DNA of 62,073 nt from a virus, in IMG/VR virus record IMGVR_UViG_3300050821_003229, positions 1 to 62,073 of that record, one strand, 5' to 3'. Position numbers and translations under genes: made by a program. Below are positions 5,149 through 49,205 of the stretch, piece after piece (within the stretch, counting starts at the first letter, position 1; each line of letters opens with the position of its first letter). Under the pieces are notes generated by a model that saw nothing but the letters and a program-made list of their open reading frames with translations, was not told where the DNA came from and made no database searches.

Positions 5149-5501
5149 GGCTTTTCACCGCGCGATGAAAATTGTTGGTCGTAAAGGTTTGCCAACATCT
5201 TGACAACTGTCCCGCCAATATCTCCGGGCCGGTTGGAGTCTCCATAAGATTCTTTGCACAAATCGGGTCTTCCCATCGCCCAAATCGCGCCAGTTATCAA
5301 CCTCGCGTCCTTTAGACCATATCGCTCTAGTGATGGCCTCCCGCCTAGGCTCCACTCATAGCCAAGCTTCCGAACCGTTTCGAGCGCTCGCGTCCAGTTC
5401 TCCGGCTGGGTCATATCTGGCGCGGGTAGCTCGCCCCGACGGGTGGTTAACATCCCCGGCTTCCAACCAACGAACGTTGCGGCCTTTTCGTTCTCTGTCA
5501 T
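5145..5501 (-). CDS. hypothetical protein ending in the dispersed palindrome (118 aa)
   Basis: The start at 5501 (MTENEKAATF) is chosen because upstream residues are not protein-like. The core contains GWKPGM and a helical part with no known family. The last residues, FSSRGEKP, are encoded by a one-mismatch copy of the genome's 16-bp palindrome, so that element forms the C-terminus. Confidence 0.55.
   Translation of the reverse strand: MTENEKAATFVGWKPGMLTTRRGELPAPDMTQPENWTRALETVRKLGYEWSLGGRPSLERYGLKDARLITGAIWAMGRPDLCKESYGDSNRPGDIGGTVVKMLANLYDQQFSSRGEKP
5152..5171. repeat. dispersed palindrome copy 1 (one mismatch)
   Basis: Core 5154-5169 reads TTCACCGCGCGATGAA; the flanks extend the symmetry to 20 bp. 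Encodes SRGE at a protein C-terminus. Confidence 0.8.
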
Positions 5502-5503
5502 GG

Positions 5504-5701
5504 TTATCGCCCCATGTGCATACAGGGACACAGGCAATGCTCCCCCGTACAATCGTAACAATGGGCCTTGCGGCACTCTTCGCTGAGATAGTAGGGGTCC
5601 GGCTCGTCTTCCTGGGTGAAGTAAGAATCGGTCCCAAGGCCGCTGAGGCTCCCTGTGGGGCTTAGGCTTGCGTCTCCATACATCTCGAAATAACGGCTCA
5701 T
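5504..5701 (-). CDS. Cys-rich small protein (65 aa)
   Basis: The C-terminal third carries C...CYDC...CLCPC with His, a likely metal-binding knot. The N-terminal part is acidic and Ser/Gly/Tyr-rich. AAAGGAGAAG precedes the start. Function unknown. Confidence 0.55.
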   Translation of the reverse strand: MSRYFEMYGDASLSPTGSLSGLGTDSYFTQEDEPDPYYLSEECRKAHCYDCTGEHCLCPCMHMGR

Positions 5702-5715
5702 GACATCTTCTCCTT

Positions 5716-5991
5716 TTAGCGACCTCGCGTGATTCCGGGTTGCTTCATGCGCTCCGGGTAAGCGCGGGCGAACTCCTCGAATGCCTCAATCGCGTCATCA
5801 ATTCCGCCAATATGGAAGTCGTTGCACTGATCCTGGATAGAGATTTGCCGGTAGGCGCGGAGTCCCTTGAGGGCCAGCCAATCGCGCCCCCGTATGAGGA
5901 ACGTTGGCTCGTCGTGCGGGATCTTCTCGCCGTTCGAGGTCTTGATAATTTCGTCGCCGTCGATACTGAATTTACCATCTAGCCTTCGCAT
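5716..5991 (-). CDS. conserved hypothetical phage protein (91 aa)
   Basis: Contains the pattern DEPTFLIRGRDWLAL...CNDFHIGGIDDAIEAFEEFARAYPERMKQPG, resembling a small protein family I associate with many phages and with no assigned function. Overlaps the annealing-type gene by one base. Confidence 0.6.
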   Translation of the reverse strand: MRRLDGKFSIDGDEIIKTSNGEKIPHDEPTFLIRGRDWLALKGLRAYRQISIQDQCNDFHIGGIDDAIEAFEEFARAYPERMKQPGITRGR

Positions 5992-6899
5992 TAGTCTCCT
6001 CCTCGCTGTCCATCTATTCGGCTACGTTCCTCTTCCTGCGTTTCGAAATCGATGTTGTCTCCTTGTGAGTATTCTTCATTGGCGGGTGGCGGATCAGTTG
6101 GCTCTAGTTCCGGTGTAACGCCCAAGCTGCCCTTCGCCGCATTGATCAAGTTCCACCATTGCGCGAGCTGGAAAGCCTGCACGTCCGGCCACGCCTTGAC
6201 CGGCCACTCCGTCTCTTTCGTTTCGAGAAAGCGGTCCTTAAACCAGTCTTTGGCACCAGCCGCGCCCCACAGACGTACCCCTTCTGCCCAGATTCGCGCG
6301 ATGTCCCCTTGGTCAGCCTTATTGGGGCTTTCACCGCGCGGTGAAAATGGCTTCGCACCAATCCAAACATCGCCGCTGGTGTTGGGCGGCCTCCGTGCCG
6401 CCCCCGCCCCCGCCCCCGCATCCGGCGTCATCTTGAGCCTTCCACGGCTCACATCCCCACGCTTATTCTCAATCTCATCTTTAGTCGCAATGCCGCGCTT
6501 AATCTTCATGCCGATGGCGGCTAGCGCACGCCCCCACGCCGAGGTCTCACAGTTCTCGAACTCGCTTCCGCGGGTGTAGGGCGTGTCGCCGGGAAGCTGC
6601 ATCGTCGAAGTTCCGATACCAGGCTTCGGATCGTCCGGCGTGCGATAGGCGTATGCCTGCATCACCACGTAGCCGCGCAACTTGGTCTCAGCAGGGTACT
6701 TGAGGTCGCCCTTTTTAACCGGCTCGCCCTTTTCGTTCTTGCCGTCCTCTTCCCAGTATTCCGGGTCGAAGTAGACCGGCTCGATTTTCGAGTCCACAAT
6801 CTGGCATTGCAACGAGCCATCGGGGAACTTCTCCTTGAACTCCGCAATCCGTTCGTGAACCTCAACGTAATCGTCCAAACTTCGCTTATCAAAGGCCAT
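5991..6899 (-). CDS. putative ssDNA-annealing or recombination protein (302 aa)
   Basis: The start at 6899 has CAGGAGATGTAGCA upstream. The N-terminal 160 residues include FENCETSAWGRALAAIG (about residues 127-143), a signature seen in phage proteins of the single-strand annealing/ssDNA-metabolism class. The C-terminal half is Pro/Asp-rich and acidic, as in ssDNA-interacting proteins. A perfect palindrome copy encodes FSPRGE in the linker. RusA lies in the opposite operon. The family call is tentative. Confidence 0.45.
   Translation of the reverse strand: MAFDKRSLDDYVEVHERIAEFKEKFPDGSLQCQIVDSKIEPVYFDPEYWEEDGKNEKGEPVKKGDLKYPAETKLRGYVVMQAYAYRTPDDPKPGIGTSTMQLPGDTPYTRGSEFENCETSAWGRALAAIGMKIKRGIATKDEIENKRGDVSRGRLKMTPDAGAGAGAARRPPNTSGDVWIGAKPFSPRGESPNKADQGDIARIWAEGVRLWGAAGAKDWFKDRFLETKETEWPVKAWPDVQAFQLAQWWNLINAAKGSLGVTPELEPTDPPPANEEYSQGDNIDFETQEEERSRIDGQRGGD
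6329..6346. repeat. dispersed palindrome copy 2 (perfect, 18 bp)
   Basis: TTTCACCGCGCGGTGAAA, perfectly symmetric, inside the annealing-type gene where it encodes SPRGE on the minus strand. Confidence 0.9.
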
Positions 6900-6978
6900 T
6901 GCTACATCTCCTGATGCTTGGCGCAGCGGGCCGTGTTGCCAACGGCGGCCGCCATACATGGAAAGTTAGAGTTAGACT

Positions 6979-7221
6979 TTAGTAGAATGGAAAGCCCGCA
7001 TCGGGCGGCTCAGCAGGAATATGGGAATGAGGACCGGCCTGCTCACAAGCAAGACATCTCAGAGCAGGCTCCAGCGGCAGGAGCTTTTCCACGCACTGGC
7101 GCAGGGATTCGCTATCTGTCGCTACATAGAGAGCCTGCTCGACAAAATCCGCGCCCCATCCCGCGATGATGTAAGCGGAGCGGTCGTCCGCTAGTCGAAT
7201 GTTGAGATGCTTAATTGCCAT
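6979..7221 (-). CDS. hypothetical protein (80 aa)
   Basis: The start at 7221 is preceded by GGAGAACTGAT. The N-terminal half looks like a small alpha/beta domain (MAIKHLNIRL). The C-terminus has a CLAC pair plus His residues that could bind metal. No family recognised. Confidence 0.5.
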   Translation of the reverse strand: MAIKHLNIRLADDRSAYIIAGWGADFVEQALYVATDSESLRQCVEKLLPLEPALRCLACEQAGPHSHIPAEPPDAGFPFY

Positions 7222-7222
7222 A

Positions 7223-7414
7223 TCAGTTCTCCAGCTTAACCGGGATATTAAGCCCACACCCCGCGCACTTGATCGGCCGCTTGAACACACTCTCCGCAGA
7301 GATCGGGATGTGCCAGCTCGTTTGCTCGGAAGGATAGCCCATATAGATATCCGTCCAGCAGTTGATGCAGAACGACTTGTCGTGAAGGATGTAGTAGCCT
7401 ATCTCTGGTTCCAT
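7223..7414 (-). CDS. zinc-ribbon small protein (63 aa)
   Basis: Two Cys pairs, CINC (residues 16-19) and CAGC (50-53), form a probable zinc ribbon covering the whole protein. Likely a nucleic-acid or protein-binding adaptor in the early operon. Confidence 0.55.
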   Translation of the reverse strand: MEPEIGYYILHDKSFCINCWTDIYMGYPSEQTSWHIPISAESVFKRPIKCAGCGLNIPVKLEN

Positions 7415-7428
7415 CGGCGTTCCCTCTG

Positions 7429-7653
7429 CTATTCGTTATTCTTGTAGGCACGCATGATTTCTTCCCACTTGCCGGGTAAGTAGGCTTCAAGGGCGTCTGC
7501 CACAATCTCGCCCTTGCTCTTGCCCACAGCCGCGGCAACGAGCCCTAACTTCTTGTCTAGAGCTACTAGGCGCGGCGGCTTATCTACGGTCATAGTCATG
7601 CCGCCAGAGTTTATGGTTCGATAGTTGCTGCTGCCAGGGTTCTTATGTGCCAC
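7429..7653 (-). CDS. ribbon-helix-helix-like regulator B (74 aa)
   Basis: Starts at GTG 7653 behind GGGAGAA. The segment LDKKLGLVAAAVGKSKGEIVADALEAYL matches the two helices of RHH (CopG/Arc-type) DNA-binding proteins, preceded by a possible strand. It lies directly downstream of a second RHH gene and near an array of AAGTGCY repeats, so an autoregulatory or early-operon repressor role is plausible. Confidence 0.55.
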   Translation of the reverse strand: MAHKNPGSSNYRTINSGGMTMTVDKPPRLVALDKKLGLVAAAVGKSKGEIVADALEAYLPGKWEEIMRAYKNNE

Positions 7654-7657
7654 GGAT

Positions 7658-7846
7658 TTATTCTCCCTTTGCCGCACTGGGCGGCGGTTCGTTCTTTGGT
7701 TTGGGCAGCTCGCAGTATTCTGCAATAATGCGCTCCACGAATTCACTGCGCGATAAACCAGTGTGCCGGTTGTACGAGTTGAGCCGCTTGAAGACCGGCG
7801 CAGGCAAGTACGTCACGACCCGTAGTTTGTTGACTCGTTCCTTCAT
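7658..7846 (-). CDS. ribbon-helix-helix regulator A (62 aa)
   Basis: LRVVTYLPAPVFKRLNSY then TGLSRSEFVERIIAEYCE is a clear RHH fold: a beta strand that enters the major groove, then two helices. The start at 7846 follows GGGAG. It is the first gene of the leftward operon, next to the AAGTGCY repeats, and probably controls the divergent promoters. Confidence 0.7.
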   Translation of the reverse strand: MKERVNKLRVVTYLPAPVFKRLNSYNRHTGLSRSEFVERIIAEYCELPKPKNEPPPSAAKGE

Positions 7847-7871
7847 GGCTCCCAACAGTGCCACAAATTAA

Positions 7872-7908
7872 AAGTGCTTGTCAAGTGCCTTCGTGCTGAA
7901 TAAGTGCT
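7872..7908. promoter_or_regulatory. probable RHH operator: AAGTGCY repeats in helical phase
   Basis: AAGTGCT (7872), AAGTGCC (7883), TCGTGCT (7891) and AAGTGCT (7902) form two pairs, each with an 11-bp spacing, about one helical turn. RHH proteins typically bind short tandem repeats cooperatively. The array lies between the RHH genes and the rightward promoter. Confidence 0.6.
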
Positions 7909-7909
7909 A

Positions 7910-7938
7910 TTGACAGGAAATTTATCTTTTGTCATAGT
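7910..7938 (+). promoter_or_regulatory. sigma70-type promoter of the replication operon
   Basis: TTGACA (7910-7915), a 17-bp spacer, then CATAGT (7933-7938). Transcription would begin near 7945, giving a 5' leader of about 15 bases before the GTG at 7960. The AAGTGCY operator abuts the -35 box, so a bound repressor would block polymerase. Confidence 0.7.
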
Positions 7939-7959
7939 CGGTTGGCGCGGAGGGAGTAA

Positions 7960-8433
7960 GTGAAGAAATCGGGATTGCGGCCATGGCCGGACGAATTGCA
8001 ATTAACGGACGATATGAAAGCCTTCGCCTATATCCAGGGGATCGAGCCAGTCGCGGAGTTCGAGGCGTGGCACGATAGCTGCCTGGCGAATGGCTACCAA
8101 TATAAAGATTGGTCAGCGGCTTGGCGCACGCGAGTACGGAATGCGGTTAAGTTCGCTCCGGTTCATCGCGCGGTGAACGATCCGCGACCCATAGACGGCG
8201 GCTTAGCGCGGGGCAGTGGAGCCCTCAAGCAAATCAAGCAATGGGAAAAAGAGGCGCGAGGGGCGGTTAATGGACCTGTCAACGGTAATATTGGTGGCGT
8301 CGGGCGCGTTTCTAATCGAAATGATCATCGGGGTATCGATAGCAATCCCGCGTCTCTAACCCCCGAGCAACTTACAGCCAACAAGGCGCTGCTGCGGGGG
8401 ATGGCGAGTGGAATAGGACGGGCGATTAAATGA
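7960..8433 (+). CDS. DnaT-like replication/helicase-loading protein (157 aa)
   Basis: Residues 8-65 (WPDELQLTDDMKAFAY...WHDSCLANGYQYKDWSAAWRTRVRNAVK) match the DnaT C-terminal-like domain used by phage replisome organisers to bring host DnaB helicase to the origin. The rest is low-complexity Gly/Asn/Arg. The start is GTG with GGAGG six bases upstream. A one-mismatch palindrome copy encodes VHRAVN at the end of the domain. First gene of the rightward early operon. Confidence 0.65.
   Translation: MKKSGLRPWPDELQLTDDMKAFAYIQGIEPVAEFEAWHDSCLANGYQYKDWSAAWRTRVRNAVKFAPVHRAVNDPRPIDGGLARGSGALKQIKQWEKEARGAVNGPVNGNIGGVGRVSNRNDHRGIDSNPASLTPEQLTANKALLRGMASGIGRAIK
8161..8178. repeat. dispersed palindrome copy 3 (one mismatch)
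   Basis: Core 8162-8177 TTCATCGCGCGGTGAA, with symmetric G/C flanks. Encodes HRAV in the DnaT-like protein. Confidence 0.8.
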
Positions 8434-8621
8434 GCATGCGGCTAGAAGATCATCTATGGCGTCTTGGTAATTTCACGGCTGGAGCGTTTACCGAGAAACT
8501 ACTTCATCACGACTCATGGCCGGATAGCCTGTTAACTGCGGCCTCTTTTTTCTTGTTGGTGGCAACGCTCCATGTTGTACTTGAGCGCATGACACAAAAT
8601 CGGGCCGCTAGATCTAGATAA
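8430..8621 (+). CDS. single-TM small protein (63 aa)
   Basis: ATGA overlap with the DnaT-like gene. One hydrophobic segment (about residues 33-52) and a basic C-terminus. Function unknown. Confidence 0.5.
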   Translation: MSMRLEDHLWRLGNFTAGAFTEKLLHHDSWPDSLLTAASFFLLVATLHVVLERMTQNRAARSR

Positions 8622-8629
8622 TTAAGATC

Positions 8630-8695
8630 ATGAGTTTAAGAGAAGAAAGAATAGAACCTGATTCCGAGCCCCGGAAAGAGATTAAGAAGCCGTGA
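8630..8695 (+). CDS. possible 21-aa leader-type peptide
   Basis: ATG 8630 to TGA 8695 encodes a highly charged peptide (MSLREERIEP...). No strong ribosome site. It is placed just before a 300-base gene-free structured stretch, so it may be a leader peptide or chance. Confidence 0.25.
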   Translation: MSLREERIEPDSEPRKEIKKP

Positions 8696-8990
8696 CAAAA
8701 GGTCCAAGACAAAGCTTTGCCGCCAAGGCTCAGAATGTGTCTTGTGGTTCTTATTCTATTCAGGTGGCTGGAAGTTCGATTCAGCTAGCTAGGAATCGAT
8801 TCCTCGCCCCTCCCGTTCTTAGGCAGAGAGTTGGCCCGACGGGTCGTGAGAAAGAGCCTAGACGCAGAAACGCCCCGAGTCAAGGACCCAGGGCGCTGCT
8901 GCACTCTCTATTCAACAAGAACTGTGTCTCGGGGAGGAGACGATTTGAGAATGGCACCTGTTAGAGAGCTAGTCAAGAGGGAGAGGAGAG
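8696..8990. other. structured gene-free region, possible ncRNA
   Basis: No convincing gene; the open frame through it lacks a credible start. Helices can be drawn: AAGACA/TGTCTT around an AGCTTTG/CAAGGCT hairpin, CGATTC/GAATCG, and a long-range CCCCGAG/CTCGGGG. A tRNA B-box-like GTTCGATTC lies near 8774, but no cloverleaf closes around it. Could be a phage non-coding RNA or the replication origin region. Confidence 0.4.
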
Positions 8991-8997
8991 AAACGCA

Positions 8998-9066
8998 ATG
9001 ACCCCATTACTTGAGTGTGCGCTGATGTTCGCCATCGTGGCGGCCGTGATGATGGTGCTGCCATGA
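8998..9066 (+). CDS. tiny membrane peptide (22 aa)
   Basis: AGAGGAGAG precedes ATG 8998. The product is a single hydrophobic segment (MTPLLECALMFAIVAAVMMV + LP) and its stop overlaps the next start (ATGA). The signals for translation are strong despite the size. Confidence 0.55.
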   Translation: MTPLLECALMFAIVAAVMMVLP

Positions 9067-9233
9067 AAACCATCTACCGAGTGAAGTATAACGAGACCGA
9101 GCATCGACTCGACTTAGTAGACCCGGAAACCGGCTTGGTGCCCAAGGGGTGGCTGCCGTTCGGGACGGAGCCGCGCGCGCTCGCGCCAAGGGAAGGCCCA
9201 GGGATCCGCGTCAAGGAGGAGAAGCATGAATAA
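9063..9233 (+). CDS. hypothetical protein (56 aa)
   Basis: Coupled to the tiny membrane peptide by ATGA. Charged, soluble, with no recognised motif. The AAGGAGGAG site of the next gene lies within its 3' end. Confidence 0.5.
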   Translation: MKTIYRVKYNETEHRLDLVDPETGLVPKGWLPFGTEPRALAPREGPGIRVKEEKHE

Positions 9234-9321
9234 CTGGGCTAAACTGAAATGGTTCGGGCTGGGCGGAATGGCCGCATCGATTTTAATAGCTGCACTGACG
9301 TTTATCCTAAGCCGCCCATAG
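9226..9321 (+). CDS. tiny single-TM protein (31 aa)
   Basis: ATG 9226 is preceded by AAGGAGGAGAAGC, one of the best ribosome sites in the window. The product has a basic N-terminus followed by one hydrophobic span. Overlaps the previous gene by eight bases. Confidence 0.55.
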   Translation: MNNWAKLKWFGLGGMAASILIAALTFILSRP

Positions 9322-9627: not shown

Positions 9628-10043
9628 GCGATTACAAAGAGCTGGTCGACCGGGCGCGGGCCGGATTGAAGGCCCCATCGGTCGGGATGTGGGGGCGACT
9701 AGTCATTAAGCAAATGATCAGCGCCATCGAAACCCTCCAACGGGAACGGGATGAGGCGCTGGAAATAACGGATCGTGGAAGCTGGGTGGAGCTGAAGGCT
9801 AAGCTCGCCCAGGAGGCTGCTGAAGTCCAGAGCTTAAATGGAGAGGTTTGCGAGCTTCTTGAAGAACGGGAGGCGGGAGTGGCGCGGGTGGCGAGTCTTG
9901 AGGCCGCGCTAGACCATGTACTCTGGGCGCTCGAAGATCGGATTCTAAACTGCAAAGCGTGTATGGCGGCGCAACAAATTCTAAACGGCGACGATATAGA
10001 GATGCCTGTTCCTGCCCTTCCGGTCGAGTCTGAGCCACGATGA
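9624..10043 (+). CDS. coiled-coil protein, tandem paralogue 2 (139 aa)
   Basis: Paralogue of the preceding gene with a longer helical C-terminal half (residues 50-105 rich in Glu, Ala, Leu and Val), then a CKAC pair and an acidic Pro-rich tail. Overlaps both neighbours by four bases. Confidence 0.6.
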   Translation: MSDYKELVDRARAGLKAPSVGMWGRLVIKQMISAIETLQRERDEALEITDRGSWVELKAKLAQEAAEVQSLNGEVCELLEEREAGVARVASLEAALDHVLWALEDRILNCKACMAAQQILNGDDIEMPVPALPVESEPR

Positions 10044-10384
10044 AGCCAAAGACGGGCCAGACTATGGGTCGTGGGAAATCCGGCGTTCCTCGCGCGGTGA
10101 AAAAGCACAAGCTCAGCATCGAGTATATCTCGGATGATAGCGGCGACGTGCTGCGGTATTACTCCAAGGGCCACCATGATTTCGATGCGTTTAAGCAGGC
10201 CGTGGCGCGCGACCAGGGATGCAAGCCTGATGAGATTTGCGAGCCCCAACACGATTGGTGGCGCTGGAATCTTTACGAATGCGGGGTAAGTGCCAAGGAA
10301 TCGGGCTATTGCGGCTGGCAGACCCAAGGAACGCCCGGTAAGCGCGGTTCGTTCCCGGTGACGGTAAGTGAGGGCCTAACATGA
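10040..10384 (+). CDS. hypothetical protein (114 aa)
   Basis: Basic N-terminus containing a two-mismatch palindrome copy (VPRAVKK), then an alpha/beta core with Trp-rich QHDWWRWNLYECG and a second CGW. No known family. Confidence 0.5.
   Translation: MKPKTGQTMGRGKSGVPRAVKKHKLSIEYISDDSGDVLRYYSKGHHDFDAFKQAVARDQGCKPDEICEPQHDWWRWNLYECGVSAKESGYCGWQTQGTPGKRGSFPVTVSEGLT
10086..10101. repeat. dispersed palindrome copy 4 (two mismatches)
   Basis: TTCCTCGCGCGGTGAA; encodes PRAVK in the 114-aa protein. The most diverged copy. Confidence 0.55.
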
Positions 10385-12924: not shown

Positions 12925-13027
12925 TCGGGATGGCGGGCTCTGCCCCCGCACGAACCGTTCTCCCTAAGAGCAAGGGCGGTTCACCGGATTCCAAGTCCGG
13001 CGCGTCTACTGATTTCGCCACATCCCG
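12925..13027 (-). tRNA. leucine-scaffold (class II) tRNA with UGG (Pro) anticodon
   Basis: The minus strand folds into a full cloverleaf with every stem paired. Acceptor is CGGGATG/CATCCCG, then U8 G9. The D-arm GCGAAATCAGTAGACGC is nearly identical to bacterial tRNA-Leu. The anticodon arm is CCGGA-CTTGGAA-TCCGG, so positions 34-36 read UGG. A 34-nt variable arm contains GAACCG/CGGTTC and CCCT/AGGG helices, and the T-stem is GCGGG/CCCGC. The discriminator is A, as in tRNA-Leu; no CCA is encoded. Oddities: T-loop GGCAGAG instead of TTCRANY, A in place of G18, and a variable arm far longer than normal. It lies antisense to the surrounding operon. Confidence 0.75.
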
Positions 13028-13214: not shown

Positions 13215-13289
13215 ATGCCCGGTCCGAAGCCCTATATTAAACAACCTAAAGACAAACAGAAGCGCCAGTGGCGCACGAGAGGAAAATGA
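13215..13289 (+). CDS. possible 24-aa basic peptide
   Basis: ATG 13215 to TGA 13289 encodes a very basic peptide (MPGPKPYIKQPKDKQKRQWR...). Its stop overlaps the next start (ATGA), which suggests coupling. The ribosome site is weak. Confidence 0.35.
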   Translation: MPGPKPYIKQPKDKQKRQWRTRGK

Positions 13290-13753
13290 CGCTACAGCAA
13301 CGGGCGATTGCCCTAGACGCGGCGCGCGTGGTTGGTGCCACGATGGACCGGCTGAAGAGCAAAGAGCGGACACAGCGGATTGCGACCCAGCGCCAGGAGT
13401 GGGTTTGGCTGATGCGGCGCGCAACAGGGATGAGTTATCCACAGATCGGGAAAGAAGTGGGGCGCGACCACTCGACGATTATTCACAGTTATAACCTAGT
13501 AGAGCAGCATTACAACAACGGAGCGCACGACCGCCTAGAGCGAGCCTTAGTGGAAGTTACCCCGCGCGTGCTTGATCCGCTGGGCGCGGAGTTTTGTAAC
13601 TTCGACCCGCTGCCGGTGAAAAGACGAACTCCTCCGCAAACCGAACTAGGCAAGTTGGTTTATGGTTTCGAGATCCAGCGAGAAGAATGTCAACGGCGAC
13701 TTGAAGCATTGAATATCGCCATAAACCGGCTGGGGGGAGCCGATGCGACGTGA
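13286..13753 (+). CDS. DnaA domain IV-like DNA-binding protein (155 aa)
   Basis: EWVWLMRRATGMSYPQIGKEVGRDHSTIIHSYNLVEQ (about residues 34-70) carries the DnaA box-binding signature, with an IG...GRDHSTIIH core. There is no AAA+ ATPase domain. A stand-alone DnaA-C module could occupy DnaA boxes at the phage origin or compete with host DnaA. The start at 13286 is chosen for AGAGGAAA before it. With the DnaT-like protein it suggests the phage recruits the host replisome. Confidence 0.75.
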   Translation: MTLQQRAIALDAARVVGATMDRLKSKERTQRIATQRQEWVWLMRRATGMSYPQIGKEVGRDHSTIIHSYNLVEQHYNNGAHDRLERALVEVTPRVLDPLGAEFCNFDPLPVKRRTPPQTELGKLVYGFEIQREECQRRLEALNIAINRLGGADAT

Positions 13754-14439: not shown

Positions 14440-14650
14440 TTGAGTCCTCGAAATTAGAGAATGTGCGGGTCAGGTCCGGTCAAAGCCGGGAAGCGAGTAA
14501 CCGAACCTGACCTCAGCCGCGAAGGTGAGGTGGTCGAAGAAGAGGGTTGTCCCCGTGGCCTAGCTCAGAGAATTTCCGAGCAAGCACGCCCTACGGCGTC
14601 GGTTCGGCTCACAGGGATGATTGTACAGTCATAATTCCTCACTTGAGCAT
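14440..14650. other. structured gene-free region with tRNA-like A and B boxes
   Basis: GTCAGGTCCGGT (14467-14478) pairs with ACCGAACCTGAC, followed by a CCTCA/TGAGG hairpin. Bases 14550-14617 resemble a tRNA: TCCCCGT/ACAGGGA ends with one mismatch, TAGCTCAG as A-box, a GCTC/GAGC D-type stem, ACGCC/GGCGT hairpin, and CGGTTCGGCTC as B-box. No T-arm closes, so it is not called as a tRNA. Possibly a degenerate tRNA or tRNA-like RNA. Confidence 0.45.
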
Positions 14651-15650: not shown

Positions 15651-15787
15651 AACCATTGCCTCACGATAGCCCAAGTACGGGCAGGAAAATGCCGGGCGAT
15701 CTGGTAGGCCTGGTCGAAGGTTTCGAAGGTATGAGGCCAGCGCCGGTAGCCGCCCGCGTGAAAATAGGTGATTATGTAGCGTTCCAT
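15647..15787 (-). CDS. hypothetical protein (46 aa)
   Basis: ATG 15787 to TGA 15647. Aromatic and His/Arg-rich (MERYIITYFHAGGYRRWPH). Both ends overlap neighbouring genes (TAATG and ATGA). Confidence 0.5.
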   Translation of the reverse strand: MERYIITYFHAGGYRRWPHTFETFDQAYQIARHFPARTWAIVRQWL

Positions 15788-15909
15788 TAGTTTTCACCGC
15801 GCGGTGAAACTTGAGCTTCGACATAGGCAGCAGCCGCCAATAGGACGAGTAGGGGTAGCGCTGCGCCGACAGCGATGATCATAGCTAGCCTTTTCATTAC
15901 GATGCTCAT
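15787..15909 (-). CDS. tiny signal-anchor protein ending in the palindrome (40 aa)
   Basis: ATG 15909 follows GGGAGCAATC. A basic start and 20 hydrophobic residues form a signal anchor. The last residues, VSPRGEN, are encoded by a perfect palindrome copy, so removing the element would remove the C-terminus. Confidence 0.5.
   Translation of the reverse strand: MSIVMKRLAMIIAVGAALPLLVLLAAAAYVEAQVSPRGEN
15792..15809. repeat. dispersed palindrome copy 5 (perfect, 18 bp)
   Basis: TTTCACCGCGCGGTGAAA at the 3' end of the 40-aa gene, read as SPRGE. Confidence 0.9.
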
Positions 15910-18468: not shown

Positions 18469-18699
18469 TCACGATATCTTGTCAATAGGTGTATCTGATA
18501 ATTCTTCTAAATGGTTGGATTGTGCTTGATTTGCTTGAGTTTTATTTTTCACCGCGCGGTGAAGAAGTGAGCGGATATACCCGGTGACAACGGCAGCCGC
18601 GCTAGTGTCATTCTCAACGCACCAGTGTTTGAACGCCCTAGCCTCATCCGCTGAGAGACCAGTGCGCACATTCTTATAAGCCTGTGATTGTGTAACCAT
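18469..18699 (-). CDS. RHH-like regulator, leaderless (76 aa)
   Basis: LSADEARAFKHWCVENDTSAAAVVTGYIRSLL resembles the two-helix part of an RHH-type DNA-binding protein. A perfect palindrome copy encodes LHRAVK after it. No ribosome site precedes ATG 18699. The ATG falls where transcription should start from the TTGACG-17-TACCAT promoter, so the message appears leaderless, as for lambda cI. It heads the leftward 14-18.7 kb operon. Confidence 0.5.
   Translation of the reverse strand: MVTQSQAYKNVRTGLSADEARAFKHWCVENDTSAAAVVTGYIRSLLHRAVKNKTQANQAQSNHLEELSDTPIDKIS
18548..18563. repeat. dispersed palindrome copy 6 (perfect)
   Basis: TTCACCGCGCGGTGAA, inside the leaderless RHH-like gene, read as HRAVK on the minus strand. 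Confidence 0.9.
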
Positions 18700-19249: not shown

Positions 19250-19392
19250 AAGGCCAAATGCCAGCCTGCGCCCAATGCGGCAGCCGCCCAGGGAGTTTAC
19301 AAAGGTCACGCGGCAAGCTGTTATGTAGGGAGTGTCACCCGCGCACGCGGTATCATCGCAAGCCCCTAAAGACGCCAGCAAAGGTAAGATGA
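19246..19392 (+). CDS. zinc-ribbon protein (48 aa)
   Basis: CAQC (residues 8-11) and CREC (28-31) with a very basic remainder. Second such mini zinc ribbon in this block. Overlaps the regulator gene. Confidence 0.5.
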   Translation: MKGQMPACAQCGSRPGSLQRSRGKLLCRECHPRTRYHRKPLKTPAKVR

Positions 19393-19901
19393 TGAAGCTG
19401 ATAGAAGACGTAGCTACGGGTAAGCGTCCTAACCCACTTTTGTCGGAAATTCTTGAATGGGAACCAATCCCAGAAGAGAAGTTAGTATATCTCAGAGAAC
19501 GGCTTCGTGACCGGCTATACACAACCATCATGAAGGCTTTTTTACGAAGGGTTGAGCTGAAAAAGGACTTCAAACAATCCGACCTTGCTATCCGTATTCA
19601 CAGGACCCAAGCGCAGATCGCCCGCTGGTTTAGTGGTGCAAGCAATTTAACGATTGACTCAATTAGCGACCTGTTGGCTGGCGTGGCCATGGATATCGAT
19701 GATTTTCCAATTACGCCTATTGAAAAGACGGTCCAAGTAGAATCGCCCTCTACAGGAACAAGGGTTGAGCTGAAAAAAGAACCCCAACTCCCCCATCTTC
19801 CATTGAATCCACTAGAGAGTTCTCCCAACCATCGGACTACGACGCCAAGTCTACGCAACACGCGCCCGCAATCGCTTCTGGGCTACACTAGGCTATCCTA
19901 A
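19389..19901 (+). CDS. XRE-type helix-turn-helix regulator (170 aa)
   Basis: FKQSDLAIRIHRTQAQIARWFSGASNLTIDSISDLLAGVAMDID (about residues 61-104) is a Cro/CI-family HTH. The first 60 residues are an extra helical domain. After about residue 125 the frame becomes low-complexity and unlike protein, and a better frame starts at about 19831 (see next entry). It sits just before the late promoter array and is the best candidate to bind it. Confidence 0.65.
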   Translation: MMKLIEDVATGKRPNPLLSEILEWEPIPEEKLVYLRERLRDRLYTTIMKAFLRRVELKKDFKQSDLAIRIHRTQAQIARWFSGASNLTIDSISDLLAGVAMDIDDFPITPIEKTVQVESPSTGTRVELKKEPQLPHLPLNPLESSPNHRTTTPSLRNTRPQSLLGYTRLS

Positions 19902-24692: not shown

Positions 24693-24853
24693 TGGACGAC
24701 TCGAAATGGATTGATGAAGAGCGGGACGCCCATACGGTGATATGGTCTTGGCCCAGGACCAAGATGATCTACATCAAGAAAAGGGTTTTCAACCCGCAGG
24801 ATTACGGGGTGGTCGTGATTGACACATTCAAGGATGCGGAGAAAATCGATTGA
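24692..24853 (+). CDS. hypothetical protein (53 aa)
   Basis: ATG 24692, one-base overlap with the previous gene (TGATG). Acidic N-terminus and a basic/aromatic middle (WSWPRTKMIYIKKR). No family. Confidence 0.5.
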   Translation: MDDSKWIDEERDAHTVIWSWPRTKMIYIKKRVFNPQDYGVVVIDTFKDAEKID

Positions 24854-25497
24854 GGGACGAACTTAAACTTTGCCAATGCGGGCAGCGTCACAAGTGGGGC
24901 ATCATCCGCTACTCCGAAGATAACGTGCCACTATACGGAGCATACCCCGCTGAGAATGGTTGTAGAGACTTCCGCGCCGTTGAGGAGGGCAACGAAAACC
25001 TGCCCGCGATGACTGCGAAGGATACCGAAGAGTTGTGGGCGGCGACGAACTTCCTCAACGCCCAAGTACCGACTGCAACCCGGATAGCCATTAACCAGAT
25101 TATGCAAATCGGTAAGGGTGGAGACGGGTTCTTTGCCAAGCTGTTCGGCGTAGGCAAGGGGAGCTTGATGGAGAAGCAATGGCCTGAATTTATGGGCCTG
25201 GTGCTTTCCCAACTCACCGACGTACGCGGCGCGATGATCCGCGAAGACTCCAAGTTTGCGCACTTAATCGCCCATACCGACGAAATCGTGGAATCGATGC
25301 GCGGGGTGGTGCAGCTCTCGGAACGGCTTGAGACCTTGGCGCAGATGCAGAGTCGCATTATGGATCAATTGGAAAGTATCGAAGCGCGACTTTCACCGCG
25401 CGGTGAAGCGGATAATGCCGAAAAAGCGCGAGTGTTTAGCCAAATCACCAAGCCACTATGGGACGAGCCGATTCTGACCGATGCCGATGAATCTTGA
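24850..25497 (+). CDS. coiled-coil protein with N-terminal zinc site (215 aa)
   Basis: TTG 24850 overlaps the previous stop. CQCGQRH near the start may bind zinc. Residues 90-180 are helical (ESMRGVVQLSERLETLAQMQSRIMDQLESIEARL), a probable coiled coil. A perfect palindrome copy encodes LSPRGE. Located between the terminase and the ejection-type proteins; role unknown. Confidence 0.5.
   Translation: MRDELKLCQCGQRHKWGIIRYSEDNVPLYGAYPAENGCRDFRAVEEGNENLPAMTAKDTEELWAATNFLNAQVPTATRIAINQIMQIGKGGDGFFAKLFGVGKGSLMEKQWPEFMGLVLSQLTDVRGAMIREDSKFAHLIAHTDEIVESMRGVVQLSERLETLAQMQSRIMDQLESIEARLSPRGEADNAEKARVFSQITKPLWDEPILTDADES
25392..25407. repeat. dispersed palindrome copy 7 (perfect)
   Basis: TTCACCGCGCGGTGAA, read as SPRGE in the 215-aa protein. 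Confidence 0.9.
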
Positions 25498-28828: not shown

Positions 28829-31672
28829 ATGGCAGGCGGACTTATAGATTTCACGGGCAAGGCGCTCCCGCCAGGGGCGACCGTAGGTGCGCCTGCCCCT
28901 GCCAGTGCAGCCCCCGCCCCCGACAAATCTGGGTTGATAGATTTCACGGGCAAATCTCTGCCGCCTGGGGCGACCGTAGGTGGTCCGCTGGGTGGTCCAA
29001 ATGCAGAGATGTGGGCGGCCCCTAGTCCCAGCGTCCGGGCGGCTGAGAATATTGGCACGATGGGCCTGATGGGGGCGGGCGGATTGCTCGGTGGTCCCGT
29101 GGGTGCAAGTCTCGGTGGAACTGTCGGAGATATTGCCTCTGAAGTCGGGAACTATGCGGCCTATGGCGGCCAGAAGCCGGTAATTAATCCGAGTACTGTC
29201 CAAAAAGACCTGCTTCAGAACATGGGCGGCGTTGCGGTAGGTGAAGTTGCTGGCCCGGTAGTGTCTAAGGGCCTAGCCAATATGGGTGGCGACATTATCG
29301 GTAAGCGCGCCCTTGGCCAAGCAGCCCAAGAGACTGCCGAAGAAGCCGGACAGGTTGGTCAGAAGGCTTACGAGAAGCAGGCAGGGGCGAACCTCAAGGA
29401 ACGCACCGATACCTCAATAGCGGCCGGTGAGACACTGGGTAAGGCGCAGGATTCTCTAGCCTCGACTCGGGCGAATGCGGAGCAAGGAGCGAACGAGAAA
29501 ATCGGTGGCCTCAAAGATAAGGTAGCGCAGGAGCTTCAGCCAGAAGCCCGCCAAGCTGCGATTCAAGATTCGCTGGGACGCTCGCCGGAACAGACACAGA
29601 AATCAATGCGCGGGACGATGGAAACCACGCCAGAAGGCGTGAGTGTCCCCGGCCCCGGTATGACGAATCGCCAAACCGACTTCTGGAACTCGGTTTACCA
29701 GCCGATCCACAAAATGTCGGATGCGCTCGGGTCTCAGTACGACAAGCTTTTTGAGGGCGTGGCGGATCAGCCTGCGAACACTACGGCAATAGCAAGGGCG
29801 GTTGAAGAAGAGGGCGCATATTCTGCGACTCATGGGGTAAGTTACTCGCCCGCAGTTCAGAAACTGCTCTCTCGCGCGGATGCAATGGGTGGCAAGGCTC
29901 CCGAAGTAAGCTTCACCGGGTCGGCGGGGGCGGAACGGTTTGGGTCATTCCAACTTACTAACGAACAAATCGCTCAAATGAACGCCCAGGCGGGAAAGGG
30001 TGGGTCTCTAGCTGGCGAACCAGCGACGACGATTAATCAACTTCGCGGTCTCCGCTCCGACGCCTCAGCGCTTGTTTCTAGCTCTGCCAATGGCCGCGAT
30101 AAGGCGGCCGCTCAGAACATCGTCGATGCGGCGGATGACGCGCTTGAGCAGTCGAACGTGCTCAGCCCCAAGGGTCAGGCTCAGCTCAAGGGGTTGAACG
30201 GCAAATGGCGCAGTTACAAAACGACTTTTGACCGTTCGCTGCTTCGTAAGATTGGCTCGACTAACGAACCGGTGGACGCAGCATCCGAAATTTTCGATGA
30301 CCCAAAGCGCTTCTCACTGCTAACGGCGAACGCGGACAAGGATCAACTTTCGACACTACGCCGGACCTATGCAGATTGGGTTAATACGGCAGGCGACAAG
30401 GTAATCAAGGATACGCATGCACCGGATTTGCAGAAGCTATTCCCTGGAACGCCGCTCGCCAACCCGAAGTCGTGGATTTACCTAGACAAGAGCCTGACGA
30501 AGTTCGAGGATGTGATTCGCAGCAACCCGCAGGTTCAGCAAAAAGCATTGCGGATCTATCAAGAACAGCTTCGTAACATTCGTTCGAACGCCGCGCAGTC
30601 GGTAGTGGACGATGCGACCAAATATCTGCCGAAGTTAGGCAATACCGGCCAGCGCATCATTGCTCAAATGAAGGCCGCCAAGACGCCCGAAGAGGCGGCA
30701 GATATCGCGGCTAAGGGTATCGAGGGCATGACACCCCAGCAGTTGGGGCAAGAAACGATGCCTGTGCAGAAAAGCCCTGAGGCAGCGCAACGCGAAGCGA
30801 TCATAGGAACTCAGTCGCCCAAGGCAGCGCAGCGCGGAATGATTCCACCGACCACACCTGATGAGGCGGCGATTCAAGCGATTCAGACCGGCCAGAAGCC
30901 AAAATCGGGCGGTGGTGGCATTATGAGTAGGATCGCCCGTAACTATCCGCTCTATGTGTTGGTCAGCGCCGCGTACTTGGCGGAGAACAAAAGCCCCTCA
31001 CCCTATATGGGTGGCATGGCCATCGGCGGGTTACTGATGGCTGGGAGTGAGGGGATTCGTGGATCTGTCTACAAGTATCTTGCGGATCACCCCGAGAGCG
31101 CCGCGCGAATGTGGCAAGCGGTGACGAATCCTGGGACCGATAGCAACTTTAAGTATTTGATGAACATGGCGGCTAAGGCGAGTATTGCGAAAGGGATGGC
31201 GGGCGGGGCGAAGATGGCCACTGGTCAGCCGTTTGAGCCGCCCGAAGACAATAAAGTTGGCCCAGCAGTCAAGGCGACTGAGAAGTCCCGCGCTGAGGCA
31301 ATCGCGCCCGTACCCAGTGCCAGCAAACGAGCAGCAGAGCTGAGCAAGGATATTCACCGCGCGGTGAAACCGGCGGACGTACAGAACGACCTCAGCCGGG
31401 GCCGTCTCTCAATGGACGAGGTAAAAAAGACTCTCCAGCACGCGGGCAAGGGAACCAGCGCCATGCTTGACGGGATACCCATTACCGAAGCCTTTGACGC
31501 CGTGGAAATGGGGACGCCGGAAGAAAAGCAGACGTTGGTTCCGCTACTCCAGCAACGAATGCGCGCTGAGATGGCCAAACAGAACGGCAACCGCACCATG
31601 CAGGCGAAGCTCGCGATGCGCATGAAGGCACTGACACAGGGAATGAACGCTCCGGCAGAAGCCAATGGGTGA
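28829..31672 (+). CDS. large internal virion (ejection) protein (947 aa)
   Basis: Size and helical Ala/Gln/Glu-rich make-up fit the large ejection protein of podoviruses. Two N-terminal repeats, GLIDFTGKALPPGATVG and GLIDFTGKSLPPGATVG (about residues 4-20 and 34-51), look like docking peptides. A hydrophobic stretch near residue 705 (YPLYVLVSAAYL...GGMAIGGLLMAG) could enter the host membrane. A perfect palindrome copy encodes IHRAVK near residue 844. No transglycosylase motif is seen. Confidence 0.55.
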   Translation: MAGGLIDFTGKALPPGATVGAPAPASAAPAPDKSGLIDFTGKSLPPGATVGGPLGGPNAEMWAAPSPSVRAAENIGTMGLMGAGGLLGGPVGASLGGTVGDIASEVGNYAAYGGQKPVINPSTVQKDLLQNMGGVAVGEVAGPVVSKGLANMGGDIIGKRALGQAAQETAEEAGQVGQKAYEKQAGANLKERTDTSIAAGETLGKAQDSLASTRANAEQGANEKIGGLKDKVAQELQPEARQAAIQDSLGRSPEQTQKSMRGTMETTPEGVSVPGPGMTNRQTDFWNSVYQPIHKMSDALGSQYDKLFEGVADQPANTTAIARAVEEEGAYSATHGVSYSPAVQKLLSRADAMGGKAPEVSFTGSAGAERFGSFQLTNEQIAQMNAQAGKGGSLAGEPATTINQLRGLRSDASALVSSSANGRDKAAAQNIVDAADDALEQSNVLSPKGQAQLKGLNGKWRSYKTTFDRSLLRKIGSTNEPVDAASEIFDDPKRFSLLTANADKDQLSTLRRTYADWVNTAGDKVIKDTHAPDLQKLFPGTPLANPKSWIYLDKSLTKFEDVIRSNPQVQQKALRIYQEQLRNIRSNAAQSVVDDATKYLPKLGNTGQRIIAQMKAAKTPEEAADIAAKGIEGMTPQQLGQETMPVQKSPEAAQREAIIGTQSPKAAQRGMIPPTTPDEAAIQAIQTGQKPKSGGGGIMSRIARNYPLYVLVSAAYLAENKSPSPYMGGMAIGGLLMAGSEGIRGSVYKYLADHPESAARMWQAVTNPGTDSNFKYLMNMAAKASIAKGMAGGAKMATGQPFEPPEDNKVGPAVKATEKSRAEAIAPVPSASKRAAELSKDIHRAVKPADVQNDLSRGRLSMDEVKKTLQHAGKGTSAMLDGIPITEAFDAVEMGTPEEKQTLVPLLQQRMRAEMAKQNGNRTMQAKLAMRMKALTQGMNAPAEANG
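31353..31368. repeat. dispersed palindrome copy 8 (perfect)
   Basis: TTCACCGCGCGGTGAA, read as HRAVK in the large internal virion protein. Confidence 0.9.
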
Positions 31673-38175: not shown

Positions 38176-39282
38176 ATGCCAGCACCTAAACTCAAGATTT
38201 TCAATGATAGTGAGATGCTAACCGACGAGGCGGCATTGGCGGAAGAAACTACTCAGCCGGTCGTCACCGAAGAAGCGCAACAGCAGCAAACTCAGGCTGA
38301 GATTGACGCCGCTAAGGTAGATCAACAGCAGCCTCCGGTGGCTACCGACGAAGATGCCGCCCCTAAGAAAGGTCCAGTAGAACGCGCTGTTTACGAAAAC
38401 GTCCAAGTTGCGCTTAAGGCTGAGCGTGAACAGCGTAAGGCGCTAGAAAAGCAAGCGCAAGAGGACCGTGAGTTTCGAGTTCGGGCGGAAGAGCGTACCA
38501 AGTTTGTCGAGGAAGCGGCAACTCGCATCAGGCAGACTGCCGAGCAACAGAAAAAAGCAGCGGAACGGCCCGATCCCGACATCGACCCCGATGGTGCAGA
38601 CAGGTACGACACCAAGCAGGCGCTGGCGCAAGAGCGAGCGGCCCGTGAGGCCATGGAGCAGCGGTTTAATCAGTTCAGCCAGACTTATCAGCAGACCGAA
38701 GAACAAAAGCAAATGTCGGATTGGGTCCAGCACACCGCGAATGGCTATGCGCAAACGGACCCAGAGTATTTCGATATCGCTAAAAAGTTCGCGTCTGGGC
38801 GGATCGGGTTTTGGCAGCATGCTGGACCGCTAGCCCCACCCCAAGCCTGCCACGATATGATAGAAGCGGAGAGCAAGTTGTTGGCGGCGTGGTCGAGGCA
38901 GTATGGAGGCAACTTCGCTGCGACTTTGGCCAAATTTGGCCGCGAGGGTTTCGTCGCAAGAGAAGCCCCGCCGCAGCAGCAGCAGAACGGCAACGGGCAA
39001 ATTCCCCGCGCGGTGAACGGCAACGGCGCAGCCGCGCAGCAGCGTCTCGACCAAGTAGCAGCAGGCCAGCGGCTACAGGGTATCAGCGCGATACCGGGAG
39101 CAGGGCAGGAAGGGGCGGGTAGGTACGCCAACTATAGTCAAGCTGACCTCGCCAATATGCCAGAGGGAGAGTGGGCCAGAGTAAAAAGCGACCCGCGCGC
39201 CGCGATGGAACTGGCGGTTGCGTTAGGTAAGGCGGAAGGTGTAAGCACGGAAGAAGCCTATAAAATCCTGAAGGCTGGATAG
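38176..39282 (+). CDS. probable scaffold protein (368 aa)
   Basis: Acidic Gln/Glu-rich N-terminus, a long central coiled coil (about residues 60-180) and a Gln/Asn-rich C-terminal linker ending in a small helical domain, the classical make-up of podoviral scaffolds that direct coat assembly and then leave. Lies upstream of the coat gene, with a small gene and an HNH gene between. A one-mismatch palindrome copy encodes IPRAVN. Confidence 0.65.
   Translation: MPAPKLKIFNDSEMLTDEAALAEETTQPVVTEEAQQQQTQAEIDAAKVDQQQPPVATDEDAAPKKGPVERAVYENVQVALKAEREQRKALEKQAQEDREFRVRAEERTKFVEEAATRIRQTAEQQKKAAERPDPDIDPDGADRYDTKQALAQERAAREAMEQRFNQFSQTYQQTEEQKQMSDWVQHTANGYAQTDPEYFDIAKKFASGRIGFWQHAGPLAPPQACHDMIEAESKLLAAWSRQYGGNFAATLAKFGREGFVAREAPPQQQQNGNGQIPRAVNGNGAAAQQRLDQVAAGQRLQGISAIPGAGQEGAGRYANYSQADLANMPEGEWARVKSDPRAAMELAVALGKAEGVSTEEAYKILKAG
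39002..39017. repeat. dispersed palindrome copy 9 (one mismatch)
   Basis: TTCCCCGCGCGGTGAA, read as PRAVN in the scaffold-like protein. Confidence 0.8.
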
Positions 39283-45808: not shown

Positions 45809-46224
45809 TGATTGCGCCGTTCGATCCTCCGCCGCCGGGGCCGATGAATTTTCAGCGGTTTCAAGACTTGCGGTCTTTTCTGATTACTTGGGTAGTTAAT
45901 AAGTGGATGCAGTACGTCACCAGATACGTGCAGGACTTTCTGCTGCCAGTTTTGAATACCCAGCTATTTAATTATGGGCCTGATATTGCGAGCGCGGCAT
46001 CGATTACCCCCTCAGCAGCGGTTCATCGAATTACGGGCACGGCGGCGATTGCGACGATTAACGCCCCGGTAAATTTCGCAGGGGCCTTCGACGCGATTGC
46101 GGTCGATGGATTCACGACGGTAACCACCGGCAACATCCTGCTTGCGGTGGCCGTGCCAGCCAACCACATGGCACACCTCGCCTATCATCCCGTTATCGCA
46201 AAGTGGGGCATCATTACGTCATGA
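45808..46224 (+). CDS. tail/neck accessory protein (138 aa)
   Basis: Pro-rich start, a helix (LRSFLITWVVNKWMQYVTRYVQDFLLPVLN) and a beta C-terminal half (ITGTAAIATINAPVNFAGAFDAIAVDGF) that looks like a small tail-fibre base domain. Coupled to both neighbours. Possibly links the tailspike to the neck. Confidence 0.45.
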   Translation: MIAPFDPPPPGPMNFQRFQDLRSFLITWVVNKWMQYVTRYVQDFLLPVLNTQLFNYGPDIASAASITPSAAVHRITGTAAIATINAPVNFAGAFDAIAVDGFTTVTTGNILLAVAVPANHMAHLAYHPVIAKWGIITS

Positions 46225-49205
46225 AGAAGTTTATTGCCCTATTGCTTCTGCTGATCATTTTCACCGCGCGGGGAATTGCGCAGGCCGCCGCGCCGACGAC
46301 TTCGGTTATCTCTGGCGTGCTCTACAACGTAGACGGAAGCACCTGCAACAACTGCACGATAACCTTCAACTCGATGGTTGTGCAGACCATCAACAGTGTG
46401 TCGGTTCAGCCTCTAATCCGCTCGACCAAGACCGACGCCAGCGGCAACGTCGCGCCGATCTCCCTGACGCAGGGACTAGCGGTCCAGATAGTGGTTACCG
46501 AGAACGGCATCACCTTCCCCGGAACTCAAGGGATAGTGCCGTTCCTGCCTACTTCGGACATCAGCAATCTTTTCCAAGGGTTCATTTCTGAGCCGCTGAA
46601 CATCCTAGCGAGCCTATATCCTCCAACTGGCCCGCTAGACATGAACAATCAGAAAATCACGGATTTGGCGTGCCCCAGCACAAATAATGACGCGCTCTCG
46701 TGGGGTTGCAACGCGACGGTCAATAATCTCACCGTGACCGGAACCATCAACGTCAATCCCAATACCTCTGGCCTAAACGTCAATGGACGCTTTAGCGTTA
46801 CGGCGCTCACCGACCCAAGTGCGCCGTCCTCGGTAACCGCCCACGGGACCACCGGGGCGACCAGCTACACCTATTATATCGTCTGCCACGACAGCAACGG
46901 CGGGACCACGCTAGTCTCGCCGGGGACGACCGTAGCTAACGGCAATGCGGTCCTCTCGTCGGTTAATTACAACTTGGTTGCTTGGACCTTCCCCACCTTC
47001 GCTACAACCTGCGATGTTCTGCGTGGAGCGACGGCCCAGACCGCCCAATCGATAATTGGTGGCTTGGCGGTCCCATACTCAGCTTCTGCGTCCATCCACG
47101 ACACGAATAATTCGACCTCCACCTACACCATTCCAACCCGCAATACCACGGGCGATGGCAGCTTTGCAGGAAACCTGACGGCGCAGGCCATCACCGGCAC
47201 GTCGGTAACTGGTACGACAGGCAATTTCACCACGTCGCTGACGACTCCGGCAGTGCTGGCAGGAAGCTTGGACAGCGCGGTCTATGTGATGGAAACGGGC
47301 GGGGCCGTCGGTAATGCGCGGGTCGCGAATGTCAGCTACGGCGGGATTACGACAGCAAACGGGTCACATACCCTGACCTGCGCGAATTGTACGTTCCTGT
47401 CAACGGACGTGGGCCAGACGGCAATGGTGCCCGGCTCCGGCGCTCCGGGATTGTTAATGGGCTACGGAGTGACCGCGGGCACGATTAATCTTGCCTCGGG
47501 CGCGGCCTCAGCGACCTTCAGCTATACGCCCACGGGAAACTGCACGGCACATTACAAGAGCGCAACGACGTGGTACACCCAGACGCTCACACTGACAGCG
47601 GCGACCTGCGCGGGAACGCTTAGCAATACGCCGGTCGTGGCTGACAGTCTCATAATTTCCACCCCCGAAGGGGCAGACGCCGTGGACATGGGACCGGCAA
47701 CTTGGATCGGGACGGTGACCGGCTATACCGATGTGCATAACATCACCCTCAGCACGGCCGCTGGATCGACCAACGACAACACCAACGCGGATGGTGTGGT
47801 CTATCTCGGCACCGACGATACGGCGGCTATCAACAACGCTTATGCGGTAGCGCTGACCAACCAGCAAACCTGCAACGTGGAAAGCTTCGATATTAACAGC
47901 GCGGATTGCAACGCCCATCTCATCTTCGACCCAGGACATTCCTATATGACCACTGGGCCGCTGAACTTTAACACCACAAATCTGACCAACGCGATTATTG
48001 ACGGCTATGGGTCGATGCTTTACAGCGCGCAATGTGGTGTAGCGCTGAATCTGCAAAATGCGACACTCGCGGGCCTCAGCGCGCGGACGCAACTGAACGG
48101 CATGAAGGTATTTGGCGCTCTCTGTCAGGGCAGCGAGGGAGTTAACGCGAAATTCGCATGGTGGCCGCGAGTTAGGGACTCAACCTTTATCAATTTTATG
48201 ATGGGGGCTGAGGTTGGTACTAATTCTGGTTCGGGCAGCACGAACGACCTGACGAATTTTGAAAATGTTCTATTCCAATACAACGGTATCGGTGCGCTAT
48301 TCCACGGTTGCGATACTTGCGGGATAGAAGATAGCTACGTGAGCGGCTTTCACGACCGGGGTATAGTTGCTGGCGACTCAACCGGCTCGACCGTCGCCGT
48401 GACGACCAATCTCCAAATCGACCACGTGGAATCGAATGGCGGATTCCCGTCTAGTTCGGTTTGTTATGACATTGGCGGAAATGCGCAGAACCCGTCGCTG
48501 GTCAAATCGTATTGCGAAACCGCCCCAGCGAGCGATGCGAGCGTCGTGCGCTTAGGTGGGGTTGGGCATATTTCGGGAAGCACCTTCGCGCCGACGGTAA
48601 TGAACAATACGTTCTCAATGGGCGACCCCTCGTCGCTGCAACCCGCAATTACGATGGGGCCGGGTAATGTCAAGGCTTTGACGGCCATGTCCAATACTTT
48701 CACCGGCTGGAATGTTGGTTTCTTTTGCGGCAGCAGTACCACTAATTCATTTTTTGGCCCGGAGTTCTTCAACAGCGTAACGACGGACTACTCAAGCTGT
48801 AATGGCATCGTGATACAGGGCGATCTTCTCCAGGAAGCTACGTCGGCTACCGCGGCCGTGCCGGTAACGGCAATAGAAGCCATGAGTCCCGGCGACTTGG
48901 CTATGGCCGCGACTAATGGCGGCCATATCTCCACTCTGCTCGGAACGGGCGTGTCCCCTACGGTGACTACCTGTACCGCGGTCGTTGGTGCGGGCTCCAC
49001 AGATAACGCGGGCACGGCAACGACTTCGGGCGGGACGACCTGCGTGGTGACCTTCGGGACGGCGTTCCTGGACCGTCCCGTCTGCCTAGTTACTAACTTG
49101 ACTCACCCCAACCCGGTAATTCCAACCTACACGGCTGGAACCAGCTTCAGCATAACCCTCAGCAATGCTAATGATAGCTTTAACTGGCTGTGTGCAGGTA
49201 AATAG
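46221..49205 (+). CDS. signal-peptide-bearing beta-helix tailspike (994 aa)
   Basis: Residues 1-22 form a signal peptide (MKKFIALLLLLIIFTARGIAQA). A carboxypeptidase-regulatory-like beta domain follows (TTSVISGVLYNVDGSTCNNC). From about residue 530 a pectate-lyase-type beta-helix starts with GTDDTAAINNA and continues with GIEDSYVSGF-type rungs. Typical tailspikes degrade surface polysaccharide, but they lack export signals. Many cysteines support an oxidising compartment. A palindrome copy encodes FTARG in the leader. Confidence 0.65.
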   Translation: MKKFIALLLLLIIFTARGIAQAAAPTTSVISGVLYNVDGSTCNNCTITFNSMVVQTINSVSVQPLIRSTKTDASGNVAPISLTQGLAVQIVVTENGITFPGTQGIVPFLPTSDISNLFQGFISEPLNILASLYPPTGPLDMNNQKITDLACPSTNNDALSWGCNATVNNLTVTGTINVNPNTSGLNVNGRFSVTALTDPSAPSSVTAHGTTGATSYTYYIVCHDSNGGTTLVSPGTTVANGNAVLSSVNYNLVAWTFPTFATTCDVLRGATAQTAQSIIGGLAVPYSASASIHDTNNSTSTYTIPTRNTTGDGSFAGNLTAQAITGTSVTGTTGNFTTSLTTPAVLAGSLDSAVYVMETGGAVGNARVANVSYGGITTANGSHTLTCANCTFLSTDVGQTAMVPGSGAPGLLMGYGVTAGTINLASGAASATFSYTPTGNCTAHYKSATTWYTQTLTLTAATCAGTLSNTPVVADSLIISTPEGADAVDMGPATWIGTVTGYTDVHNITLSTAAGSTNDNTNADGVVYLGTDDTAAINNAYAVALTNQQTCNVESFDINSADCNAHLIFDPGHSYMTTGPLNFNTTNLTNAIIDGYGSMLYSAQCGVALNLQNATLAGLSARTQLNGMKVFGALCQGSEGVNAKFAWWPRVRDSTFINFMMGAEVGTNSGSGSTNDLTNFENVLFQYNGIGALFHGCDTCGIEDSYVSGFHDRGIVAGDSTGSTVAVTTNLQIDHVESNGGFPSSSVCYDIGGNAQNPSLVKSYCETAPASDASVVRLGGVGHISGSTFAPTVMNNTFSMGDPSSLQPAITMGPGNVKALTAMSNTFTGWNVGFFCGSSTTNSFFGPEFFNSVTTDYSSCNGIVIQGDLLQEATSATAAVPVTAIEAMSPGDLAMAATNGGHISTLLGTGVSPTVTTCTAVVGAGSTDNAGTATTSGGTTCVVTFGTAFLDRPVCLVTNLTHPNPVIPTYTAGTSFSITLSNANDSFNWLCAGK
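46260..46275. repeat. dispersed palindrome copy 10 (one mismatch that removes a stop)
   Basis: TTCACCGCGCGGGGAA, read as FTARG in a signal peptide. In this frame the perfect element would read TTC ACC GCG CGG TGA; the T-to-G change turns the stop into GGA. Confidence 0.8.

Follow-up and report, generated by a model that had tools for sequence, protein, structure and literature searches.

A perfectly symmetric 16-bp palindrome, TTCACCGCGCGGTGAA, is present in ten copies with no more than two mismatches in the window, by which we mean the entire stretch of 62,073 bp of viral DNA analyzed here. Because it has an invariant center and is dispersed over both operon directions, we tentatively read it as a possible dispersed recognition site for a dimeric, two-fold-symmetric DNA-binding protein, the reading to which we would give preference on the basis of the sequence. 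No other dispersed 16-mer of the window ranked as high in a de novo repeat search, and no occurrence of the 16-mer was found in the literature searched. All ten copies listed in the initial annotation were recovered by a mismatch search of the window, with the same tally of five perfect copies, four copies with one mismatch, and one with two (Table 1); they are spread over roughly 41 kb, and the segment from 46.3 to 62 kb is indeed free of them. An extra match with three mismatches at 7742, within the body of a ribbon-helix-helix ORF, was left out of the ten-copy count. The statement that such a 16-mer is not expected by chance was borne out, dinucleotide shuffles giving on average 0.40 matches at up to three mismatches versus the 10 copies observed, and a chance origin was thus rejected; likewise, unrelated DNA of similar composition did not contain the motif at such density.

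Table 1. Copies of the palindrome in the window, with the ORF and peptide in which each one lies
Copy	Position	Location and peptide	Context
1 mismatch (TTCACCGCGCGATGAA)	5154..5169	last codons of ORF 5145-5576(-), SSRGEKP-stop	ATG at 5148(-) 5 nt on
perfect	6330..6345	in gene 5991-6959(-), SPRGE	downstream of conserved domain ending near residue 173
1 mismatch	8162..8177	in ORF 7960-8433(+), HRAVN	
2 mismatches	10086..10101	near N terminus of gene 10040-10384(+), PRAVK	immediately ahead of conserved part
perfect	15793..15808	last codons of small ORF 15787-15909(-), VSPRGEN-stop	ATG at 15787(-) 5 nt on
perfect	18548..18563	in short ORF 18469-18699(-), HRAVK	
perfect	25392..25407	C-terminal linker of gene 24850-25497(+), SPRGE	
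perfect	31353..31368	in gene 28829-31672(+), HRAVK	relatives: unrelated sequence, equal length
1 mismatch	39002..39017	Asn/Gly/Gln linker of gene 38176-39282(+), PRAVN	
1 mismatch (GGTGAA to GGGGAA)	46260..46275	near N terminus of gene 46203-49205(+)	frame 0, FTARG

The copies had been described as lying always inside genes, which is correct for nine of the ten as far as predicted genes are concerned, while the copy at 18548 falls only in a short ORF passed over by the gene caller. Moreover, those at 5154 and 15793 form the last codons of a gene, with their GGTGA at the position expected for a Shine-Dalgarno sequence, 5 nt ahead of the next ATG, and several copies in other phages are intergenic. 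In the genes with known relatives (those with the copies at 6330 and 10086), the site falls just beyond the conserved part. The encoded peptides were SPRGE, HRAVK, or similar, as annotated, and all three frames are used (SPRGE; HRAVK/PRAVN; FTARG at 46260). In particular, the consensus read in frame 0 is TTC ACC GCG CGG TGA, which ends in a stop, and the copy at 46260 reads CGG GGA and thereby avoids it. Furthermore, the six substitutions among the window copies affect only the adjacent half-site positions 4 and 5, for which a uniform model gives a P of about 0.002, and neither the outer TTC/GAA nor the central GCGC changes in any of the 18 copies from three phages. Since three frames are used, the frame-0 stop is lost, and the substitutions are confined to two half-site positions, the nucleic acid, and not the peptide, appears to be under selection. 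Selection at the peptide level was rejected, given the three frames in use and the fact that the residues are not kept in relatives; the encoded peptides are not conserved family residues. Such an invariant pattern is that of a symmetric binding site, while in an inert repeat that decays at random the changes would be expected to be scattered.

The window has a terminal repeat of 162 bases, with 99% identity between the two ends, and most likely represents a phage genome in full. Its head genes encode a P22-type portal, a P22-group major head protein, and the large terminase subunit, and a search of INPHARED at megablast level, with the 20- to 44-kb part of the window as the query, returned no DNA relatives. 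The host search conducted with the capsid protein of the window across 400 Chloroflexota genomes gave a single match, with 32% identity. As further features of this genome, we could notice an Rfam match to the DUF3800-IX RNA at 14546-14617 (-), with a score over the gathering threshold, and a tRNA-like Rfam match of 41 bits at 12925-13027 (-), which contains a long extra stretch and was missed by ARAGORN. Thr/Pro-rich codon repeats occur at 54191-54274, 57403-57543, and 60082-60294 (tail-region genes 52793-54292 and 55738-61056).

The exact 16-mer was found in 17 stretches in a scan of IMG/VR, among them a prophage (IMGVR 3300005529_000654, here G003) with three exact copies and no control matches. 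This prophage adjoins a tRNA-Arg and comprises an integrase and a bacterial flank, in which ValS is 59 to 60% identical to the best Chloroflexota matches (Chloroflexota being the sole phylum compared); all of its copies lie within ORFs. Among the GTDB matches listed, four exact copies and one copy with two mismatches were observed in contig C8 of a 2.7-Mb MAG (G024), a 40.8-kb phage contig that has overlapping ends and encodes an integrase, and zero copies occur in the rest of the MAG, outside the phage contig. Most of the G024 copies are in or beside intergenic gaps at gene starts. In L005, a relative with 86% portal identity to G024, the gene junction that holds the two-mismatch copy in G024 is occupied by a perfect copy, with flanks that cannot be aligned. 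G003 and G024 have a few proteins in common with each other, and no convincing protein homology was detected by phmmer between the window and either of them, the best value (1.5e-5) being to a Thr/Pro-rich, low-complexity stretch. The three phages have a similar G+C content (55 to 56%). In bacteria, the exact 16-mer is represented, among the matches listed, mostly by single copies in long open frames, which are consistent with chance.

A different picture emerges if the palindrome is considered at the RNA level, where the mRNA could fold, at gene junctions and linkers, into a hairpin with the stem UUCACC/GGUGAA and the loop GCGC that would serve as the target of an RNA-binding protein or influence translation or mRNA stability. 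The copies of the window and of G003 all lie in ORFs and are thus probably transcribed, and the 3' arm GGUGA is sited like a Shine-Dalgarno sequence at 5154 and 15793. Moreover, the strand-specific C-to-U variants (5154, 8162, 10086, and 14075 in G024) keep sense-strand G-U pairs in four of four cases (p = 1/16). A further argument comes from a related phage, G002 (IMGVR_UViG_3300036832_000931; L222-L224), whose capsid protein is 78% identical to that of the window and which contains 62 hairpin copies of the form GGTTC-NN-GC-(6-16 nt)-GC-N'N'-TGAAAC. The stem of these hairpins covaries (Watson-Crick fraction of 0.976 versus 0.627 in shuffles, with a maximum of 0.734), the copies with a tellable sense are sense biased by 33:3 relative to genes, and eleven hairpins begin no more than 2 nt from the end of a predicted gene. 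Two arrays of them are found, at 2.96 to 3.36 kb and 11.43 to 12.0 kb, and their core resembles the window palindrome minus the A-T pair 4-13, a pair that is also broken in three of the ten window copies. A stricter version of the pattern gave one single match in other IMG/VR contigs, and covarying hairpins of this kind were looked for in the window, where none occurred. The same phage (L222) also contains two type-P5 twister ribozymes, at 4383-4440 and 4725-4782. However, the loop of the window palindrome is invariably GCGC with zero length variation, no A-U/G-C covariation is present among the 18 copies, the pair 4-13 is broken in the three window copies mentioned, and symmetry through the loop is not required by a hairpin; on balance, we regard an mRNA hairpin as rather unlikely. 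As for known RNA families, Rfam at the gathering threshold gave no match at the palindrome sites.

Less probable still are three further explanations, of which a tiny mobile palindrome, inserting at permissive spots of phage genomes, was among the candidates initially put forward. Such an element would account for a word that is common to unrelated phages, has its sites in linkers and gene ends, and is missing from relatives: no palindrome was found in eight relatives of the window (major capsid protein 70 to 87% identical) searched at up to two mismatches (G001 and G002) or up to three (the six others), mostly partial contigs with only G002 near full length. However, clean insertions relative to homologues, as would characterize an RPE-like mobile palindromic element, were not seen, and both alignable sites show replacement instead. 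At 31353, ATTCACCGCGCGGTGAAA of the window corresponds to ATGGGCAAGGGCAAGAAC of G001, the two being unrelated blocks of 18 nt between well-conserved flanks, and at 39002, matching flanks enclose 15 nt in the window and 9 nt in G001, a net difference of 6 nt and not 16. The mobile-element reading is weakened by these two sites and, since no target duplications were seen in the flanks inspected and a 16-bp insertion would shift the reading frame, it seems quite unlikely to us. We consider it very unlikely that the palindrome belongs to the host genome (as a nucleoid, partition, or HIP1-like word) and is carried along by its phages, even though three unrelated phages of similar G+C share it and the ValS of the G003 flank has the resemblance to Chloroflexota, the only phylum compared, reported above. 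In fact, only 2 of the 400 Chloroflexota genomes have an exact copy, one each, so that a Chloroflexota chromosome repeat was rejected, and the order to which the best ValS match belongs has no copies (13 genomes within the 400-genome sample). The high chromosomal copy number of a HIP1-like palindrome is therefore not seen in these genomes or in the G024 MAG, and the suggested host nucleoid signal found no support in this set, which may not include the true host. Scattered inverted repeats, some of them inside or far from promoters, are also known from replicons of about 50 to 60 kb that encode a ParB-family protein, namely, the centromere palindromes of N15 and the KorB operators of RK2. The window is of comparable size and its dispersed palindromes are roughly as many as expected for a phage-plasmid with a dispersed centromere of the N15 kind, but they differ in sequence, a Pfam scan of about 40 window proteins gave no ParA or ParB family match, and G003 and G024 encode integrases; we consider a centromere highly improbable.

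With regard to a dispersed protein site, the closest parallels include two phage repressor systems. Cluster A (L5-like) mycobacteriophages contain many copies of a short word, the stoperators, which are bound by the repressor and at which transcription is stopped (PMC9283540, PMC6550527); each stoperator is asymmetric, and the repressor binds it as a monomer (PMC9283540). The presence of many copies of one short word across a phage genome is common to the window. Stoperators lie mostly in short intergenic gaps and are oriented with transcription, whereas the window word is perfectly symmetric, mostly intragenic, and found in both operon directions. Dispersed copies of one element also characterize the Bacillus phage SPbeta, where SPBRE, a 15-bp motif in promoter regions, is recognized by the prophage-encoded master repressor MrpR (PMC10516654). 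The window resembles this system in the dispersal of a single element, but its copies, as judged from gene prediction, fall within coding sequence or at the junctions between genes, which speaks to some extent against promoter-region sites.

The word can also sit where an operator is expected, as shown by a Phycisphaeraceae MAG (L068), in which an exact and a two-mismatch palindrome (5940-6075), each enclosed by TTTCAC/GTGAAA half-sites, immediately precede the AbiEi/AbiEii operon of a type IV toxin-antitoxin system, as for an autoregulatory operator. A similar layout was observed in L073, upstream of a 367-aa protein without a Pfam match. AbiEi proteins bind inverted repeats within their own promoters (PMC7319586), and the palindrome preceding the AbiE operon in L068 is identical to that of the window; however, the copies of the window phage are not at an abiE promoter, and no AbiEi gene is present among the window proteins scanned. 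The likeness between the phages and AbiE may be a convergence on a common half-site.

Among the candidates of the initial annotation, a dispersed protein site of the stoperator or centromere type fits best, although a cognate protein could not be assigned. The DNA-binding families encoded in the window are HTH_17 (3244-3474), RHH (7429-7864), DnaA_C-like (13268-13753), and weak XRE (19332-19901) proteins; none of the HTH_17, RHH, and weak XRE ORFs is common to G003 or G024, and neither an HTH nor an RHH family was detected in Pfam scans of the nonstructural ORFs of these two phages. As the phages had no detected protein in common, the binder may be encoded by the host, or it may be a small phage protein that diverges rapidly. 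It is possible to hypothesize that some ten dimers would bind over a stretch of roughly 41 kb and function jointly, the sites most likely serving as operators or as roadblocks to transcription, like stoperators or SPBRE, and, less likely, as a scattered partition site. The position of most window copies deep in coding sequence, unlike that of most repressor operators, argues against the operator reading. In an unlikely variant, a host factor would recognize a 16-bp palindrome that had arisen independently, at many places in coding sequence, in unrelated phages of one host group; recognition would be dispersed and in trans, and the phages would adapt to or exploit a host DNA- or RNA-binding protein, perhaps an AbiEi-like one. 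Protein binding, an action on transcription, and a possible host origin of the binder are all three inferred here, the last because no protein common to the phages was detected.

The three genomes supply a precise bait sequence together with testable sites. If the sites are bound, a single dispersed palindrome within coding sequence would be a point of convergence for unrelated phages, stoperator-type control would extend beyond the mycobacteriophages, and a shared binding protein would be implied.
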